IMG/VR virus record: IMGVR_UViG_3300022687_000029
Location: 1 to 35,599 of that record
Source: a virus
Length of the DNA stretch: 35,599 bases
Strand: one strand, 5' to 3'
A program made the position numbers and the translations under genes. Positions 139 to 35,338 of this stretch are shown piece by piece (position 1 is the first letter of the stretch; every line of letters begins with the position of its first letter). The notes beneath the pieces are model-generated. The model saw only the letters and a list, made by a program, of their open reading frames with translations. It was not told the origin of the DNA and did not search any database.

Positions 139-827
139 CCCCTCGCCCGATCGCGCCACCCTTGCGCAACGGTGCACCGCGCACTCGCCCCGAGGTCATC
201 CTCGACGGCGACCACGACACGATGACCGCACCGCAGCTGCGCAGCCACTACTCGAAGGGCTGCACCCACGAAGCATGCCGAGCCGCCGTGCGCGAAGCAG
301 CACGCGAGCGAAACCGCCTCAAGAAGGCACACGCCGTCGAGGCGCCCACCGAGCAGCGCCAGCCTGGTCTCACGCTCTCTGGATCTCGTGTGCCCGCTCG
401 TGGCGCCTCACGCCGCCTGCAGGGCCTCCTGTTCGTCGGCCACTCACCGGTCGCGATCGCCCGCCGCACCCAGGTCGGCGTCGACGCGATCTGGTGGCTC
501 CTCCACGACCTGGTCGACACCATCGACGCCGTCACCCACCGCGTCATCGACCGCGAGTTCCGCCTCCTCCGCGAGCAGGAACCGCAACCGCAAGCGAAGA
601 CCGCCGTCGCCGCCGAGCAGTTCACCGCCATGAGCCGTCACCTGGCGGCCGTGCACGGTTGGGCTTCCCCGTTCGCGTGGGACGACATCGACGCCGACGA
701 GAGGCCCTCCTACAGCAGCACTGTCGACGCGAGCAGCACCTACAGCGACCGTCAGAGGGACCTCTCGCGTGACCGCGGTCGCGAATGGCGTGCGGCGCGC
801 TCCGATCACGAAGGGGAGGCGCAGTGA
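135..827 (+). CDS. Hypothetical phage protein, possible DNA-binding
   Basis: This is a 230-residue protein starting at the ATG that overlaps the previous stop. Residues 36-66 form a basic segment with two cysteines, including SKGCTHEACR, a short pattern I associate with small actinophage proteins. The segment around residues 95-125 (VGHSPVAIARRTQVGVDAIWW) reads like a helix-turn-helix. The C-terminal 40 residues are polar and probably disordered. It sits directly ahead of the replication initiator and ends in a GTGA overlap with it, so it may regulate or assist early functions. That role is inference from position; no family is recognised with certainty. Confidence 0.7.
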   Translation: MTPRPIAPPLRNGAPRTRPEVILDGDHDTMTAPQLRSHYSKGCTHEACRAAVREAARERNRLKKAHAVEAPTEQRQPGLTLSGSRVPARGASRRLQGLLFVGHSPVAIARRTQVGVDAIWWLLHDLVDTIDAVTHRVIDREFRLLREQEPQPQAKTAVAAEQFTAMSRHLAAVHGWASPFAWDDIDADERPSYSSTVDASSTYSDRQRDLSRDRGREWRAARSDHEGEAQ

Positions 828-1663
828 GCATCCGGCACCTCGAGGACGCCGCGAACCTCTCGATGAATCCGACGCGGAAGCTCGTGTTCATGGCGTTGTG
901 CGACGACGCCAACAAGCTGAACAGGCGCACCTACCCCGGCATGGAGAAGCTCCTCACCTGGTCGGGTGTCTCGCGGGCCAGCATCCACCGGCACATCACT
1001 GCCCTGTGCGAGGCCGGCCTGCTGCTCCAGGTTGGCCGTGGCATGCCTGGACGCAGGTCGGAGTACATCGTCTTCCCCACGGAGGAGGACCACGCAAAGC
1101 ACGCCCTTCCTGAGGCGGACGACGACGCATCAGGAGAGGCCGACGAGCCTGTGGATAACTGCTCAGGAATGTGTCGCACCGGTGCGACACATTCGGAAAT
1201 AACGTGTCGCACTTCGGGCGGAATGTGTCGCACCGGTGCGACCCCTCCCCTTAGAAACTCCCCTTCTTATGGTCACCTACCCGAGGTGAGTCACGACGAC
1301 ACCGGCGAAGTTCTCCACAGCGACGACCGGGATTCGTCATCGGCGGATCAGGATCCCAAGCCCGGCATGCGTGATCGAGTCAAGCTGCGACGCCTGTCGA
1401 AGTCTCTCGACATCGACGTCCTCGTCGACGACGTCGGACGAGTGCTCACCGCCGACCACGGCATCGACGACAACCGACTTCGACCGGTGCTGCAGCTGGT
1501 CGCCTACCGCATCCTCGCCAAGGCCCTAACCGCCGGCACCCGCGTCGCCTTTCCGACCGCGTACGTCATCCGCGCGATCCGCACCGACCCCGAGGTGTGG
1601 CGGCGGGCCGCGTTCGGCTTCGACGAGCAGCTGCACACCACCACGGAACGGAGCAACCGATGA
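824..1663 (+). CDS. Winged-helix replication initiator-like protein
   Basis: The 279-residue protein starts at GTG 824. This start overlaps the upstream TGA and has a clear ribosome site (AAGGGGAGG, 811-819); an in-frame ATG at 785 lacks these. Residues about 5-85 form a winged helix typical of phage replication initiators (NPTRKLVFMALCDDAN, then TWSGVSRASIHRHITAL). The middle (about 100-165) is low-complexity and is encoded by an array of inverted repeats flanked by DnaA-box sequences. This recalls lambda O, where the initiator gene contains its own origin. The C-terminal 110 residues are helical and basic and may contact a helicase or its loader. No DnaB-type helicase gene was recognised in the window. 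Family assignment is by pattern only. Confidence 0.72.
   Translation: MSIRHLEDAANLSMNPTRKLVFMALCDDANKLNRRTYPGMEKLLTWSGVSRASIHRHITALCEAGLLLQVGRGMPGRRSEYIVFPTEEDHAKHALPEADDDASGEADEPVDNCSGMCRTGATHSEITCRTSGGMCRTGATPPLRNSPSYGHLPEVSHDDTGEVLHSDDRDSSSADQDPKPGMRDRVKLRRLSKSLDIDVLVDDVGRVLTADHGIDDNRLRPVLQLVAYRILAKALTAGTRVAFPTAYVIRAIRTDPEVWRRAAFGFDEQLHTTTERSNR
1150..1319 (+). other. Candidate replication origin inside the initiator gene
   Basis: Within 170 bp lie TGTGGATAA at 1150-1158 (reverse complement TTATCCACA, the consensus DnaA box), a 28-bp perfect palindrome at 1167-1194, a half-site at 1204-1212, a 16-bp palindrome at 1227-1242, short A/T-richer patches (1191-1203, 1251-1271) and TTCTCCACA at 1311-1319, one base from a DnaA box. 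The combination of iterons, DnaA boxes and A/T patches within an initiator gene is the layout of lambdoid origins. Origin function is inference. Confidence 0.55.
1167..1242 (+). repeat. Iteron-like inverted repeats (GTGTCGCAC units)
   Basis: The unit GTGTCGCAC occurs at 1171, 1204 and 1225. The first and third are followed by their reverse complement, making GTGTCGCACCGGTGCGACAC at 1171-1190 (palindromic out to 1167-1194) and GTCGCACCGGTGCGAC at 1227-1242. Positions 1167-1188 and 1221-1242 are identical over 22 bp. Unit spacing is 33 and 21 bp, both multiples of three, so the encoded peptide also repeats (MCRTGAT twice). Confidence 0.85.
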
Positions 1664-3074: not shown

Positions 3075-4433
3075 ATGAACGCCATCACCGCCACCACCAT
3101 CAACCCTGCCGACGTCATCGTCGACTCCAACATTCGACGCGAGGTCAAGACCGACCGGTCCTTCTGGGCCTCGATCAAGCAGGACGGAGTCCTGAACCCG
3201 ATCCTCGTCGAACTCCGCAACGGCAAACACCACCTCATCGACGGCCAACGCCGCCTACTCGCCGCCCTCGACGCAGCCCTGACAGAGATCCCCGCCACCG
3301 TCATCGACCCCGCCAAGGACCCCGCCGGCCACGTCGTCCGCCAGCTCGTCGTCAACGAACACCGCGAGCAGCTCACCGACGCCGACCGCACCGCCGCCTA
3401 CCAAACCCTCTTCGACCTCGGCGTCACCGCCGAACAGATCGCCCGCCGCACCAAGGCACCCAAGAAGACCGTCGAGACTGCGCTCGCCGTCAACGCGTCC
3501 ACCATCGCCACACACGTCACCGAACACCGCATCACCCTCGACGTCGCCGCCCGCCTCCTCGAGTTCGACGATAACCCCGACACCGTCGAGCACCTCACCC
3601 GCGTCGCCACCGACAACCCCGGCAACCTCGACTACCAGATCGAACGCCACCGAGAGCAGCGCGAGCACGACCGCGTACTCGCAGAGGCGCTCGCCGAAGC
3701 TGAAGCGGCGGGAGAGACGGTCCTCGACGCCTCGGTTCTGAGCTACGACCACAAGGGCCCCGAAGCGCACATCAGAAGCCTGTACCCCTCGGAGGCGGCC
3801 TGGAAGAAGAACGCACGGCTGAAGCCGGAGGATCACGCGTCGTGCCCGGGCCGCGCCATCGTGGTCCGAGTCACCTACCAGTGGGACGCCGGCACGAGGA
3901 CGCACGAGGCGATCACTGACGAGGTGTGCGCCGACTGGGCCGCGAACGGCCACTACAAGCCGCAGAGCGCAGCGAGTGCTGCAGGCCCGCTCACCGAGGA
4001 GGAGAAGGCGCGCCGGAAGGAGGCGCGAGAGAACAACAAGTCCTGGTCGACCGCGTCCGTCGTGCGCCGCAACTTCCTCATCGGACTCCTGGCGGAGAAG
4101 GAAGCCCCCGTCGGGTGGGAACTGTTCGTCGCCCGCTATCTCGCCCGCGGCACCGACGGCGACTACCGGATCCGCAGCACCGTCATCGATCTCCTGCAGC
4201 TCAAGGACCGCATGGAGCAGGCCGCATGGCTGGAGAGCTTCCCCAACCGTGCTCCGCAGCTCCTCATCGCCCACGCGCTCGCCTCGATCGAGGCCCAGTA
4301 CGAGTACGCCAAGAAGGGCTGGAGCCACAGCCTCACCCCCGACTACCTCAAGCAGCTCTCCACTTGGGGCTACAACCTCTCCGAGCTCGAGGAACGCATC
4401 GCCACGTCGCACAAGGGCGGAGCGGCATCGTGA
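3075..4433 (+). CDS. ParB-like nuclease/partition domain protein
   Basis: The ATG at 3075 follows GAAGGAG. The 452-residue protein has a ParB N-terminal domain in its first 110 residues: VIVDSNIRREV, ISIKQDGVLNPI-type spacing (ASIKQDGVLNPILVEL), LIDGQRRLLAALDA (ParB box) and VVRQLVVNEHREQLT. A helix-turn-helix follows (VTAEQIARRTKAPKKTVETAL). The C-terminal half is unfamiliar and rich in Lys/Glu around residues 300-320. No ParA is encoded nearby, so plasmid-style partition is doubtful; phage ParB-like proteins also act as regulators or nucleases. Its coupling to the next gene (GTGA) and its place in the replication block suggest DNA binding during replication. Confidence 0.85.
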   Translation: MNAITATTINPADVIVDSNIRREVKTDRSFWASIKQDGVLNPILVELRNGKHHLIDGQRRLLAALDAALTEIPATVIDPAKDPAGHVVRQLVVNEHREQLTDADRTAAYQTLFDLGVTAEQIARRTKAPKKTVETALAVNASTIATHVTEHRITLDVAARLLEFDDNPDTVEHLTRVATDNPGNLDYQIERHREQREHDRVLAEALAEAEAAGETVLDASVLSYDHKGPEAHIRSLYPSEAAWKKNARLKPEDHASCPGRAIVVRVTYQWDAGTRTHEAITDEVCADWAANGHYKPQSAASAAGPLTEEEKARRKEARENNKSWSTASVVRRNFLIGLLAEKEAPVGWELFVARYLARGTDGDYRIRSTVIDLLQLKDRMEQAAWLESFPNRAPQLLIAHALASIEAQYEYAKKGWSHSLTPDYLKQLSTWGYNLSELEERIATSHKGGAAS

Positions 4434-5056
4434 CCTACTGGCCCGCAGGAATGAAGGTCGACCCGATCGGGGAATGGCCCGGCCCCCTCACCCCGCAGCG
4501 TTCCCGCTCACCGTTCAGCGCACACCTCTCGAGCACGATGGAGGTGCTGAAGCGGGAGCTGCGCGAGCTCGGCGCGAAGAACGCCCGCATCCAGATCGCG
4601 GTCCCCGCCAACCAGTTCCGCCTCGACGGCTACCCTCGCGCGACCGCGAAACCCGAACACCCCGGCATCATCCTCACCCTCGAGTCCCGCCACGGCCCCC
4701 TCTCGTACCCCTGCGACACCTTCACCACCTGGCAGGACAACCTCCGCGCGATCGCCCTCGCACTCGAAGCGCTCCGCAAGGTCGATCGGTACGGAGTCAC
4801 CAAGCGCGGCGAGCAGTACCGCGGCTTCCTCGCCCTCGAAGCCACCTCGAGCACGGGTTTCACCACCGTGACCTCCGCCGCGATATACGTCGGCGAGCTC
4901 GCCGGCACCGCCCTCACCGAAGGCAACCCGGAAGAAGCCCGCCGCACCCTCCGCCTCGCCAAGCGCGCCGCACACCCCGACACAGGCGGCACCCCAGACG
5001 CATGGGCCCGCCTCACCCAAGCCGAGCAGAACCTCCGCCGCGCCGGCTGGATCTAG
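4430..5056 (+). CDS. Phage protein with C-terminal J-domain-like segment
   Basis: The 208-residue protein starts at GTG 4430, overlapping the ParB-like stop. Residues 1-160 form an unknown domain with many beta segments and TLESRHGPLSYPCDTF. The end (residues about 165-206) reads as a J-domain: a helix rich in Arg/Lys, the HPD tripeptide at 182-184 (KRAAHPDTGG), and a second helix (AWARLTQAEQNLRRAG). J-domains recruit Hsp70 ATPases such as DnaK. Recruiting the host chaperone to remodel replication complexes, as lambda does, is a reasonable guess but not shown. The upstream domain is not recognised. Confidence 0.75.
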   Translation: MTYWPAGMKVDPIGEWPGPLTPQRSRSPFSAHLSSTMEVLKRELRELGAKNARIQIAVPANQFRLDGYPRATAKPEHPGIILTLESRHGPLSYPCDTFTTWQDNLRAIALALEALRKVDRYGVTKRGEQYRGFLALEATSSTGFTTVTSAAIYVGELAGTALTEGNPEEARRTLRLAKRAAHPDTGGTPDAWARLTQAEQNLRRAGWI

Positions 5057-5066
5057 GACCACCACC

Positions 5067-5432
5067 ATGACCACCATCACCCGCATCCACGACGTCGCCG
5101 CGAACCTCACCCCGACCTACCGGGACGAGTACGACCTGCAGACGGCGCTCGCCGGAGCGCTCGAGCAGGCGGGCATCCGCGTCGACCGGGAGCACCGGCT
5201 GAGCGATGGCGAATCCCGCGTCGACATGTGGGCGTGGAAGTCGGGTGTCGCCATCGAGGTGAAGATCAAGGGGCAGGCCGCGCAGGTGATCCGTCAGCTG
5301 TCACGCTATGCGCGCTGCCCGGAGGTCAACTCGGTGGTGCTCGTCACGACGAAGGCGAGCCACCACCATGTGCCGGCGCAGCTGCATGGCAAGCCGATCG
5401 TGCTGGTCTCCCTGATCGGGGGAGGCCTGTGA
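5067..5432 (+). CDS. PD-(D/E)XK-like nuclease
   Basis: The 121-residue protein starts at ATG 5067. The core SDGESRVDMWAWKSGVAIEVKIKG carries the PD-(D/E)XK signature: Asp53, Glu64 and Lys66 (EVK), followed by a helix (QVIRQLSRYA) that usually closes this fold. It is the second nuclease of this superfamily in the block. Its stop overlaps the start of the SNF2-type helicase, so the two are probably made in fixed ratio and may work together on DNA. Substrate unknown. Confidence 0.82.
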   Translation: MTTITRIHDVAANLTPTYRDEYDLQTALAGALEQAGIRVDREHRLSDGESRVDMWAWKSGVAIEVKIKGQAAQVIRQLSRYARCPEVNSVVLVTTKASHHHVPAQLHGKPIVLVSLIGGGL

Positions 5433-7153
5433 CTCGCACGTACGGTTCGTACACGCTGCGCGTCCCCACCTCGGGAGGCCGCGCCTCGTGGGTGCTGATG
5501 CTGGAGCCGGCGGTGCGGATGCGCGCTCGGCGGATCTTCGGCCGGGTGCAGTTGACGCGGTCGATGGAGGTGACGATCGCGGACACCGATGAGGTGTGCC
5601 GGGATCTGCTGTGGTTCATGGAACGGTTCCCGCTCGAGCCGGGTGACGACCGGTCCCGGCAGCGCCTCGAGCTCGGTGCGCGCGAGCACGAGCGCGTGGA
5701 GGTGCAGCTCGACGAACTGCGCGCCGGCGGTGTCGTCCAGCTGGCCCTCGAGCAGGCGCCGACGAAGACCGCTCGGGACTACCAGACGTCGGCGGTGCAG
5801 GTCCTCCGTCTGGGCAAGCGACTCCTGCTGACCGACGAGGTCGGCCTGGGGAAGACGTTCACGGGCCTCCTGGCGTGCGCGCCCGCTGACGCGCGACCGG
5901 CGCTGATCGTCCCGCCCACGCATCTGCCGCCCCGGTGGGAGACGGAGCTGCAGGAGGCATTCCCGTGGATGACGTACAAGGTCGCCACCTCCCGCACCCC
6001 TCCAGCGTGGGCGGCTGCCGGCGACCTCCCGGACGTGACGATCGTTTCGTACTCGAAGCTCGACGGGTGGGCCGGCTACCTCAAGGGGCACGTGCGCACC
6101 GTCGTCTTCGATGAGGTGCAGGAGCTGCGCCGCGGCGTCGTCACTGACAAGGGGGCTGCGGCTGCCCTCGTCACGGAGGACGCCGACTTCGTCATGGGCC
6201 TCACCGCCACACCCGTCTACAACTACGGCGGCGAGATCTTCAACGTCGTCGACACGATCGCGCCGGGCCGGCTCGGCACCCGGGAGGAGTTCAACCGCGA
6301 ATGGGTCGGCTCCTACGTGTCCGGCAACGCCGTCATCGCCGAGCCCGACGCGCTCGGCAACTACCTCCGTGAGCAGGGCCTCATGCTCGGCCGCACCCGC
6401 AAGGACGTCGGCCGCGAACTGCCCAAGGCGATCAAGGCACCCATGGTCGTCGACTCCGACCACGCCGCCCTCGACGAAGTCCGCGAGTCCGCCGCCGCGC
6501 TCGCCGCCACGATCCTCTCCGACACCGCCACGAATCAGGAGAAGTGGCAGGCCGCCGGCGAGATCGACTGGAAGGTCCGCCGCGCCACCGGCGTAGACAA
6601 GGCCCCGTACGTGGCTGACTTCGTCCGCCTCATCCTCGAATCCGAGCAGCGCGTCGTCCTCTTCGGCTGGCACCGCGACGTCTACGACATCTGGCTGGAC
6701 CGCCTGGCCGACTTCAACCCCCTCATGTACACCGGCACCGAATCACCGAAACAGAAATCCGCCGCCGAGGCCGGCTTCACCAAGCCGTGGGACCCCGACG
6801 ACGACAACCACCGCATCCTCATCATGAGCCTCCGCTCCGGCGCCGGCGTCGACGGCCTCCAGAAGGTCTCCCGCGTCGCAGTGTTCGGCGAACTCGACTG
6901 GTCACCCCAAGTCCACGAGCAAGCCCTCGGCCGCCTCCGCCGCGACGGCATGGGCGACGACCCACCCGTCGCCTACTACCTCTACTCCACCCAAGGATCC
7001 GACCCCGCCCTCCTCGACGTCCTCCAAGTCAAGCGACAGCAGTCCGAACCCATGATCAGCCCCGACGGAAAGCTCCTCACCAACGCCACCGTCGACCAAG
7101 GCCGCGCACGACGTCTCGCCGAACAGTTCCTCGCCATCAAGGAGACCCGCTGA
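5429..7153 (+). CDS. SNF2-like superfamily 2 DNA helicase/translocase
   Basis: The 574-residue protein starts at GTG 5429. Helicase motifs are clear: motif I DEVGLGKT (136-143), motif II DEVQ (228-231, in place of DEAH), motif III GLTATP (257-262), motif V-like SLRSGAGVDGLQ, and motif VI QALGRLRR (498-505). About 110 residues ahead of motif I form a separate N-terminal domain. Phage SNF2-type proteins act in replication or recombination. Coupling to the small nuclease upstream makes a helicase-nuclease pair likely. Strongly assigned to superfamily 2; the specific role is inference. Confidence 0.9.
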   Translation: MTRTYGSYTLRVPTSGGRASWVLMLEPAVRMRARRIFGRVQLTRSMEVTIADTDEVCRDLLWFMERFPLEPGDDRSRQRLELGAREHERVEVQLDELRAGGVVQLALEQAPTKTARDYQTSAVQVLRLGKRLLLTDEVGLGKTFTGLLACAPADARPALIVPPTHLPPRWETELQEAFPWMTYKVATSRTPPAWAAAGDLPDVTIVSYSKLDGWAGYLKGHVRTVVFDEVQELRRGVVTDKGAAAALVTEDADFVMGLTATPVYNYGGEIFNVVDTIAPGRLGTREEFNREWVGSYVSGNAVIAEPDALGNYLREQGLMLGRTRKDVGRELPKAIKAPMVVDSDHAALDEVRESAAALAATILSDTATNQEKWQAAGEIDWKVRRATGVDKAPYVADFVRLILESEQRVVLFGWHRDVYDIWLDRLADFNPLMYTGTESPKQKSAAEAGFTKPWDPDDDNHRILIMSLRSGAGVDGLQKVSRVAVFGELDWSPQVHEQALGRLRRDGMGDDPPVAYYLYSTQGSDPALLDVLQVKRQQSEPMISPDGKLLTNATVDQGRARRLAEQFLAIKETR

Positions 7154-8761: not shown

Positions 8762-9178
8762 ATGAACAACACGACCCACCAGAAGACCGCCCTCGCCGAC
8801 ATCGAGAAGGAACGCGCCCGCCAAGACGAGAAGTGGGGCGAACAGAACCACCCCGACGGCACCGGACGAACCAAACGGCCGCTCACAGGCATCCAGGACC
8901 ACTCGTCCTACTTCCACGCCACCAACAGACTCGGCCCCGCCGACGACCTCGCCGCCGCAGCCACCCGCAGCACCGACGCCGCCGCACAAGCCGGCATCGT
9001 CACATGGTCAGACATCCTCCTCGAAGAGGTCTTCGAAGCCCTCGCAGAAGCCAACCCCGACCGACTGCGCACCGAGCTCATCCAAGTCGCAGCCGTCGCC
9101 ACCCAATGGGCCGAAGCCATCGACCGCCGCCAAGCACAGCAGGACACGGCGCTCGCCGAGGGTGGTGAGCAGTCGTGA
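8762..9178 (+). CDS. MazG-like nucleotide pyrophosphohydrolase-related protein
   Basis: The 138-residue protein opens with ALADIEKERARQDEKWGEQN, a segment common in phage MazG-like/NTP pyrophosphohydrolase-type proteins. It continues with ILLEEVFEALAEANPDRLRTEL and QVAAVATQWAEAIDRR, an E-x3-E-type helix pair consistent with the all-alpha NTPase fold. If active it would hydrolyse nucleoside triphosphates or alarmone-related nucleotides during infection. The canonical EExxE...ExxD set is only partly visible, so activity is uncertain. It ends in a GTGA overlap with the next gene. Confidence 0.75.
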   Translation: MNNTTHQKTALADIEKERARQDEKWGEQNHPDGTGRTKRPLTGIQDHSSYFHATNRLGPADDLAAAATRSTDAAAQAGIVTWSDILLEEVFEALAEANPDRLRTELIQVAAVATQWAEAIDRRQAQQDTALAEGGEQS

Positions 9179-9816
9179 CGCGCACGTGGCCGCGGAAGCT
9201 GGTGCTGACGCTCGTGCTCGCCTTGGTGGGTGCTGCAGCGTTCCGTCTGTCGTTCGACGCGCAGGTGGTGCTCGCGGTCGCGTCGGGCATCCCGGGCGAC
9301 TTGGCGCTGCTGTACCCGCTGGTGGTGGATGCGGCGATCGCGGCCGCGATGCTGATCGGCATCTGGGTGCCGACCCTCACGGTGGGGCAGCGGCGCTACG
9401 TGTGGGGCGCGGTGGCGTTCTTCACGGCGATCAGCATCGTCGGCAACGCGGTCAGTGTCCTCGTCATCAGTCCCGACCGGGTGACGATGCCGATCGCGGC
9501 CGCGGTCGCCTTGCACGCAGTGCCGGCGATCACCCTGTTCCTCGTCGTGCACCTGTCAGCGACGACCGTCCTGAACCCTGCAAGCCAGACGCCGGCGCCT
9601 ACCAGAAGGGCGCCTCGAGCTCGCGTGGCGCGCCCAGCGAAGGAGCAGGCGCCGGCGAGGGACATTCCGCCGGTGTCGGGTGAGCAGCTGATCGCCTTGG
9701 CCGACGGTGAGGGTCTGAGCGTGCGCGACATCGCGGCCCGGGTGGGCCGCTCCAAGACGTGGGTCTCGAAGCACCTCAGCCAGGCCCGCACCGACCGAGA
9801 GGAGCAGGCATCGTGA
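9175..9816 (+). CDS. DUF2637-like membrane protein with C-terminal helix-turn-helix
   Basis: The 213-residue protein starts at GTG 9175. Residues about 8-130 hold four hydrophobic segments in the pattern of DUF2637 proteins of actinobacterial plasmids and phages (PLVVDAAIAAAMLIGIW is typical). A basic Pro/Ala linker follows, then a cytoplasmic helix-turn-helix at about 165-203 (GLSVRDIAARVGRSKTWVSKHL). A membrane-tethered DNA-binding protein could anchor phage DNA or replication complexes to the membrane, which is inference. The family is often annotated as plasmid-spread-like, without proof. Confidence 0.82.
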   Translation: MTRTWPRKLVLTLVLALVGAAAFRLSFDAQVVLAVASGIPGDLALLYPLVVDAAIAAAMLIGIWVPTLTVGQRRYVWGAVAFFTAISIVGNAVSVLVISPDRVTMPIAAAVALHAVPAITLFLVVHLSATTVLNPASQTPAPTRRAPRARVARPAKEQAPARDIPPVSGEQLIALADGEGLSVRDIAARVGRSKTWVSKHLSQARTDREEQAS

Positions 9817-34037: not shown

Positions 34038-34238
34038 CTACCTAGGCGGCCACTGGAATCCCGCACGCCTGGCGGCGGCGATGCCGTTACGCATCGAGCG
34101 CCAGTCGCTAGCGGTTCCCGCGAACATCACCACGAACCGGCCGTCCTTGCTGACAGCGATGTGCTGCTTGCGGGTGACGGTCACCTCGAAGCCCTGTGCT
34201 TCCAGGGCCTTGATGATCTTCTTGAGATCCTTATCCAT
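34038..34238 (-). CDS. HicA-like small protein (putative toxin)
   Basis: The start is ATG 34238, 11 bases from an ideal AAAGGAGG; an upstream in-frame ATG would overlap that site. The 66-residue protein has the HicA order: a helix (DLKKIIKALEAQGFEVTV), a strand pair with RKQHI (His26, the usual catalytic position) and DGRFVVMFAG, and a final helix (DWRSMRNGIAAARRAGF). HicA proteins are double-stranded-RNA-binding-fold mRNA interferases. The SDWRSMRNGI region resembles phage HicA-like variants. The partner would be the HTH gene downstream, though 131 bp and two hairpins separate them. Confidence 0.68.
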   Translation of the reverse strand: MDKDLKKIIKALEAQGFEVTVTRKQHIAVSKDGRFVVMFAGTASDWRSMRNGIAAARRAGFQWPPR

Positions 34239-34269
34239 TGTGCTTGCCTCCTTTCTCTCTGACAATCAA

Positions 34270-34300
34270 AGACTATCAAAGGACTAGCGCTAGCGCAAGT
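34270..34300 (-). promoter_or_regulatory. Promoter and operator of the HicA-like/HTH operon
   Basis: On the minus strand TTGCGC (34298-34293), a 17-bp spacer and TAGTCT (34275-34270) form a proper promoter, and transcription would start near 34263. The near-perfect inverted repeat 34283-34300 with core GCGCTAGCGC covers the -35 side of it, a natural operator. ATCAAAG is repeated at 34265-34271 and 34275-34281 (plus strand), ten bases apart. The stop codon of the next gene lies inside the operator. Confidence 0.6.
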
Positions 34301-34501: not shown

Positions 34502-35338
34502 TCACGCAGCATGGGGTCGCGCGATCGTCGTCGACGGGAACTCCGAGATCGTCGCGGTGAACGACGTGCCCTGAGCGGCTGCGCGTAGGCCCTCGACACC
34601 AGGGTGGAGGTACCGCTGAGTCGTGGCCATGCTCGAGTGTCCGAGCATCAGCTGCACGCTGCGGAGGTCTCGCGTGGCGAGGTACGCGGCAGTGGCGCCG
34701 GCGTGGCGGAGCGAGTGGGGGTTGCAGCCGGTCTTCCTCGTAATGATCTTGTTCACGCTGGCGGTGTGCATGTGCCCACCGAAGCGGCCGGGGAAGTAGT
34801 AGCCGCGGCCCTGAATGCGTTCGAGGACGAGGAGCGCGTGGAGCAGCTCGTCGTTGATGTAGACCAGGCGTTCCTTGTCGCCCTTGCCGATGATGCGCAG
34901 GCAGTCGTGCATGCGGTGGCGAGTGTGGAGGGTGGTGAGTTCGGTGAGGCGGAGGCATCCGAAGCGGGCGAGCATGATCATCGCAGTCTCATGCTCGTCG
35001 GCTGTGATGAGCGCGTGCTGGAGGACGTCGTCGGGTGCGATGCGTGGCACTCGGATGGGGATCGCAATGGGCTGGAGGTCAGCAGCGGGGTCGTGGTCGA
35101 CGAGACCGCAGCGGAATGCCCACCGGTAGAAGGACCTCAGGGACGAGCGGAGAGAGTGGCGCGTCTCGGCCTGGTGGGTCTCGCGCATGCTCGCGAGCAT
35201 CCGCTCGAGGTCGGTCGTCGTGACCTGTGCGAGGTCGGGGTGGCGGCGCTGCAGCTGCTCGAGGTGGGTGATCCTGAGGCGAATGGTCCCAGTCGCGCGT
35301 CCTGCGGCTGAGAGGTGCTGGGCGTAGAGGGCGATCAT
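34502..35338 (-). CDS. int: Tyrosine recombinase (phage integrase)
   Basis: The 278-residue protein starts at ATG 35338 behind ACGGAG. The N-terminal SAM-like domain (about 1-90) has TIRLRITHLEQLQRRHPDL. The catalytic set is complete: Arg130 (CLRLTE), a Lys in GKGDKER (about 152-156), His208 and Arg211 (HSLRH), His234 (LGHSS) and Tyr243 (QRYLH). It lacks an arm-binding domain, so it is a compact integrase. It would insert the phage into the host chromosome. No attP was located. Confidence 0.93.
   Translation of the reverse strand: MIALYAQHLSAAGRATGTIRLRITHLEQLQRRHPDLAQVTTTDLERMLASMRETHQAETRHSLRSSLRSFYRWAFRCGLVDHDPAADLQPIAIPIRVPRIAPDDVLQHALITADEHETAMIMLARFGCLRLTELTTLHTRHRMHDCLRIIGKGDKERLVYINDELLHALLVLERIQGRGYYFPGRFGGHMHTASVNKIITRKTGCNPHSLRHAGATAAYLATRDLRSVQLMLGHSSMATTQRYLHPGVEGLRAAAQGTSFTATISEFPSTTIARPHAA

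Follow-up and report, generated by a model that had tools for sequence, protein, structure and literature searches.

It is well known that the gene of a replication initiator can contain the origin, as in lambda O, SPP1 gp38 and pSK41 Rep. In lambda, inverted-repeat iterons lie in the middle of the O gene, just after the part for the DNA-binding domain, and the O protein comprises an N-terminal DNA-binding part, a linker and a C-terminal part (PMC7466680, PMC5043065). In the staphylococcal plasmid pSK41, the N-terminal domain of Rep, a RepA_N initiator, binds Rep boxes in the middle of the rep gene; the linker encoded by the origin is dispensable, and the C-terminal domain is a compact five-helix structure (PMC5703833). 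Phage SPP1 has initiator-binding direct repeats (oriL) inside gene 38 and a second, similarly organised origin elsewhere, and encodes its own loader and helicase (PMC6316719). The replication starts of actinophages are mostly unmapped in the literature that we searched. One study of a few mycobacterial extrachromosomal prophages suggested an origin inside repA or upstream of it, on the pattern of lambda, and its authors reported no repeated motifs in this region (PMC7157519).

The DNA analysed here (the window) is an IMG/VR contig of 35.6 kb, taken whole, that has terminase, portal, capsid, tail and lysis genes. Given this gene set, the tyrosine integrase and excisionase-like genes (Table 1), and nearest DNA matches that are mainly phages of Microbacterium, Gordonia and Arthrobacter, the record is, on sequence grounds, that of a temperate actinophage, and it is possibly incomplete. 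The window also has a ParB-like gene (phrog_6218, positions 3075–4433), for which the genes scanned include no recognised ParA partner. A ParB-like gene is kept near the initiator in L147 to L150 (L numbers designate the sequences compared), and in L149 it is split by a transposase-like open reading frame (4341–5661, IS256-type by eye); the window phage carries an integrase. The lowest GC of the record (46%) is found at 34161–34280, near the integrase, where a divergent gene start or an attachment site is possible.

An earlier note on this DNA placed a replication origin in the low-complexity middle of a winged-helix initiator gene, and family matches, codon shuffles, a ranking across the record and a structure model all support that location. 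The gene starts with GTG, although an ATG at 785 is also possible. Its product matches HTH_36 over residues 14–67 in a Pfam scan (E 6.8e-9, 35.9 bits against a cut-off of 25) and three PHROG profiles for replication initiation, some of them annotated as 'O-like' (phrog_270, 4617 and 391; E 7.6e-10 to 5e-8). An NCBIfam search gave no match, a sequence search of solved structures returned only generic winged helices or chance matches, and searches with peptide patterns for close relatives of the whole protein found none in viral contigs, genome contigs or plasmids. In the AlphaFold model, a winged helix (residues 1–83; helices 16–28, 40–47 and 51–63, wing strands 67–71 and 80–83) and a C-terminal domain of five helices (residues 180–275) are separated by residues 95–179, where pLDDT is below 50 and disorder is predicted. 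The putative sites encode residues 109–140 and thus fall entirely inside the predicted disordered stretch. The C-terminal domain is common to L160, L150 and L149 (a profile of the window, L160 and L150 proteins matches L149 at 9.5e-27) and is a candidate domain for the recruitment of a helicase or loader.

The 28-bp perfect palindrome that had been reported in this linker-coding stretch is the longest in the record, where the runner-up has 16 bp; 60 simulated sequences of the record's length, drawn from a first-order Markov model, gave at most 22 bp. The single half-site and the 16-bp palindrome are also present as described, but the stretch shared between the two palindromic copies is 23 bp rather than 22 bp, and it forms the only exact direct repeat of at least 15 bp within 200 bp in the record. 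The five half-sites, centred at 1175.5, 1185.5, 1208.5, 1229.5 and 1239.5, are almost in phase with the helix (resultant 0.95 for a turn of 10.7 bp) and so share nearly the same face, and the three same-strand copies, spaced 33 and 21 bp apart, are in one reading frame. The 255-bp window that holds the cluster ranks first in the record, with a score of 23 compared with 11 for the best of 2312 others, and shuffling of synonymous codons, which preserves the protein and its codon usage, reached the observed repeat score in 0 of 1000 trials. A motif and repeat search found no second cluster of this kind anywhere in the record. The A/T patches that had been pointed out are real but mild: GC is 57% over 1150–1319 against 67.6% for the record, which is within about the lowest 1–2% of 100-bp windows though not the lowest. 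GC skew along the record does not change abruptly here and gives no clear origin signal.

Of the two DnaA boxes proposed earlier, the consensus box on the minus strand is exact, has no other exact match in the record and sits 8 bp before the 28-bp palindrome, whereas the near-consensus box has one mismatch and is at chance level, since the record has four such sites and about five are expected. L160 has different repeats, yet its only exact DnaA box is at the same place and on the same strand, and it shares with the window 14 bp spanning the box (GCCTGTGGATAACT) in otherwise diverged DNA. Among the homologues compared, L160 alone has the box in common with the window, and so the box is not a feature of the family; a helper role for DnaA is plausible for the window/L160 subgroup.

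Table 1. Features of the 35.6-kb window that bear on the putative origin and on the phage lifestyle
Feature	Position	Strand	Basis or remark
Replication initiator gene	824–1663	+	279 aa; HTH_36, PHROG matches, AlphaFold model
Winged-helix DNA-binding domain, predicted, residues 1–90	824–1093	+	HTH_36 and AlphaFold model
Linker-coding stretch, residues 95–179, holding the putative origin	1106–1360	+	predicted disordered; repeat excess
DnaA box TTATCCACA, exact	1150–1158	-	sole exact match in record to class searched
Perfect palindrome, 28 bp, GAATGTGTCGCACC/GGTGCGACACATTC, opposed half-sites TGTCGCAC and GTGCGACA	1167–1194		putative initiator site 1
A/T patch GGAAATAAC between sites	1195–1203		sequence, local GC
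Half-site GTGTCGCAC	1204–1212	+	putative initiator site 2
Second copy, 23 bp identical to 1166–1188	1220–1242	+	putative initiator site 3
Palindrome, 16 bp, GTCGCACCGGTGCGAC	1227–1242		inside second copy 1220–1242
Lower-GC stretch TTAGAAACTCCCCTTCTTATGG, candidate unwinding region (weak)	1251–1272		GC 55%, 60 bp from 1250
DnaA-like site TTCTCCACA, one mismatch	1311–1319	+	not above chance alone
C-terminal helical domain, predicted, residues 180–279	1361–1660	+	profile match and model
Excisionase-like gene	9175–9816		
Tyrosine integrase gene	34502–35338	-	

We consider it very likely that positions 1150–1319 are the replication origin of this phage, or the core of that origin, situated within the initiator gene. 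The initiator would bind the iterons, open the DNA and recruit the host helicase. In this scenario, the N-terminal winged helix would bind the TGTCGCAC half-sites, four of which form two opposed pairs while the fifth stands alone and all of which face roughly the same side of the DNA, and host DnaA would probably assist at the adjoining single perfect box. The bound initiators would bend and open nearby DNA that is less GC-rich, and the C-terminal helical domain, tethered through the predicted disordered linker, which is itself encoded by the site DNA, would recruit the host replicative helicase directly or via a loader. We infer use of this site as the lytic origin. Recruitment of a host helicase is proposed because a profile scan, in which positive controls were detected, found no DnaB_C or IstB/DnaC match anywhere in the record; the phage may have a novel loader, or a loader gene may lie outside the record if the record is incomplete.

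Comparison with homologous initiators, put forward earlier as a check, bears on what shapes the repeats. We gathered 22 homologues without use of the motif, by tblastn on known phages, from actinobacterial genomes, and from viral contigs via the neighbouring helicase gene; membership was confirmed by profile, and the set is not phylogenetically independent. The repeat layout is kept in 18 of the 22, in which the 240 bp downstream of the winged-helix part exceed synonymous shuffles (15 at 0/1000, and all 18 at no more than 17/1000), while the winged-helix and C-terminal parts have almost no repeats by the same test. Shuffles were not exceeded in L109, L137, L138 and, in the fixed 240-bp window, L110. 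The linker holds the top repeat cluster of its locus in 16 of the 22. The repeat sequence itself is not kept and differs by phage (e.g., CAGTGTCCGG in L139, AAGACCCGACAG in L140, CCGCAAACCCTGCG in L146, CAGAATCTGG in L152 and L163, and AACAGTCCCAAA in Bcep176).

Helical phasing is known for plasmid iterons (PMC5043065). The 57 same-strand spacings in the homologues, which are phylogenetically non-independent, peak at 22, 33–36, 44–45 and 55–56 bp, that is, at whole helical turns (best period about 11.2–11.4, resultant 0.73), and favour no codon phase (21/19/17); in Bcep176 and L140, one repeat is read in all three frames. Because the spacings follow helical turns and ignore the codon frame, selection acts on the DNA and not on the peptide. 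The suggestion that frame-keeping repeats place protein and DNA under joint constraint thus holds for the window gene as far as frame is concerned but not for the homologues, and the comparison supports a pattern that would be set by DNA binding.

The layout is also found with a second type of initiator. The helicase (69–70%) and ParB-like (51–56%) proteins closest to those of the window are in L149 and L150. There, the initiator gene in the equivalent position is of another winged-helix type (PHROG 2447) and has distinct GTCACG repeats, but the C-terminal domain of its product is related to that of the window protein. L150, with short GTCACG units, is marginal in the shuffle test (7/200), and L149 was excluded from the shuffle results of the PHROG 2447 family. 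Relatives of the L150 protein occur in 438 phage records, all with hosts that are actinobacterial by name. All eight cultured actinophages tested that have a PHROG 2447-type initiator, and one HTH-type Rhodobacter phage, have repeats that exceed those of 200 shuffles and of all other windows in the locus. The layout thus seems, from these sequences, to hold generally in two families of winged-helix initiators. Dense mid-gene repeats (VEGEVEGEVE, SQSQSQSQ) also occur in other putative initiators from this neighbourhood (L154, L158 and L165), and the layout may span more families.

Among other explanations, the one that survives best is still improbable: the palindromes could be an operator for the winged-helix protein or for a phage repressor, regulating transcription through the gene, with the origin elsewhere. 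Palindromic dimer-type sites are generally known to be typical of operators, the location is in the early gene cluster, and a bound initiator could also block RNA polymerase. However, the site is about 340 bp into the gene with no promoter-like sequence found nearby, the single cluster is unlike the dispersed sites of a repressor, and homologues have 3–10 phased copies at the same place, as expected of iterons. We give even less credence to the 28-bp palindrome as a hairpin in RNA or single-stranded DNA (an attenuator, a cruciform or a single-strand initiation site) in place of protein sites; its single-strand fold is strong (-31.8 kcal/mol, z -7.7), but no terminator-like T run was found, and most homologues have direct repeats at this position, which form no hairpins. 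It is hardly credible that the DNA repeats simply follow from a repetitive, low-complexity linker peptide (MCRTGATHS..TCRTS..MCRTGATPP), even if the same-strand copies in the window gene stay in frame, given the outcome of the shuffles, the predicted disorder of the linker, the use of two or three reading frames for a single DNA repeat in homologues and the indifference of their spacings to codon length.

The TGTCGCAC palindrome was also considered as a marker of the family and was rejected, as most copies in viral contigs are in unrelated places. Five contigs (L016, L043, L060, L062 and L086) have it inside HTH_36 genes, where it is read in another frame and where three of the five contigs have one and the same sequence, and none of 22 genome matches of the motif 18-mer is inside an HTH_36 gene. 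Since the contexts are mostly unrelated, the shared motif is not counted as evidence and reflects convergence at most. In the Spirochaetes sequences L117, L118, L124 and L134, the 18-mer TGTCGCACCGGTGCGACA is directly upstream of a related gene (GRND..D..SGDINEYN..) and is likely an operator or plasmid site. In L041, L080, L090 and L094, repeated TGTCGCAC/GTGCGACA pairs precede a series of small genes that share a leader, and resemble the regulon of one DNA-binding protein.

Read as an origin within its initiator gene, the locus resembles lambda O in that the inverted repeats lie mid-gene, just after the DNA-binding domain (nucleotides 344–419 of the window gene and 349–433 of lambda O), and in the order of DNA-binding part, linker and C-terminal part. 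Lambda O served as a positive control, with 0/1000 shuffles and the top cluster of its 5-kb locus. The lambda O-like arrangement of the earlier note therefore stands as layout, seen in this control and in the homologues, but not as detectable kinship: a 16-seed profile scores lambda O at -1.2 bits, and Pfam lists no lambda O family for the window protein at E up to 0.1. Unlike lambda, the window has no detected DnaC or DnaB gene, its A/T tract is much weaker, a perfect DnaA box lies beside its sites, and its iteron sequences differ.

The pSK41 Rep gene parallels the window gene no less closely than lambda O does, although it belongs to a plasmid rather than a phage. In both, the sites (putative in the window) lie centrally and encode a linker that separates two domains, the C-terminal one with five helices, as modelled in the case of the window protein. 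The top Foldseek matches to the modelled N-terminal domain are 4pql, 5kbj and 4pt7 (E 5e-3 to 1e-2, not decisive), which we take to be N-domain structures of staphylococcal plasmid RepA initiators; the match is weak, with rank 1 at E 5.1e-3 and Z 8.4 amid many unrelated winged helices. The fold search with the C-terminal domain gave no clear match, and 4pqk, presumably the C-domain of the same RepA protein, ranked level with unrelated folds at Z 3.9. A Pfam scan at E up to 0.1 did not list a RepA_N domain in the window initiator. SPP1 likewise has repeats, there bound by the initiator, inside an initiator gene but differs in its second origin, where the window record has a single cluster, and in its own loader and helicase. 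The mycobacterial RepA prophages are likewise actinophages but are extrachromosomal, whereas the window phage has an integrase. The window is a well-supported further case of an initiator gene carrying its own origin, in an actinophage, and it would work like lambda O without detectable sequence kinship.

In Gordonia phages, the winged helices of initiators are known to be swapped while the C-termini are kept (PMC10684548). The Gordonia phages StorminNorm (L167) and Tangerine (L173) are 94.8% identical up to initiator codon 27, and 90.6% identity resumes from the last 37 initiator codons. Across the winged helix and repeats between these points just a 29-bp piece aligns, and the repeats differ (ACGTAACGGCGTTAC and GTCACGCGTGAC, respectively). 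In both phages the repeats, despite their difference, are followed by CCCGACCCGACCCGACC (peptide RPDPTRP), and RPDPTRP-like peptides come after the repeats in many of these initiators. What the present comparison adds, from this one phage pair and from L149 and L150, is that the repeats seem to travel with the domain.

The chances seem to us evenly balanced that, in actinophages and others, a winged helix and its own sites form an exchangeable 'lock and key' cassette within one gene. Recombination would then swap both and leave the C-terminal part and the adjacent genes in place, replication specificity would change in one step, and the origins of hundreds of cultured actinophages could be read from the initiator gene. 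The locus is a clear case of one DNA stretch that doubles as the code for a predicted disordered protein linker and as a putative array of binding sites. If the layout holds, it would explain the swapped winged-helix domains (PMC10684548), as domain and sites would move together, and the origins of the window phage and of many cultured phages of Gordonia, Mycobacterium, Microbacterium and other hosts would be predictable from sequence.
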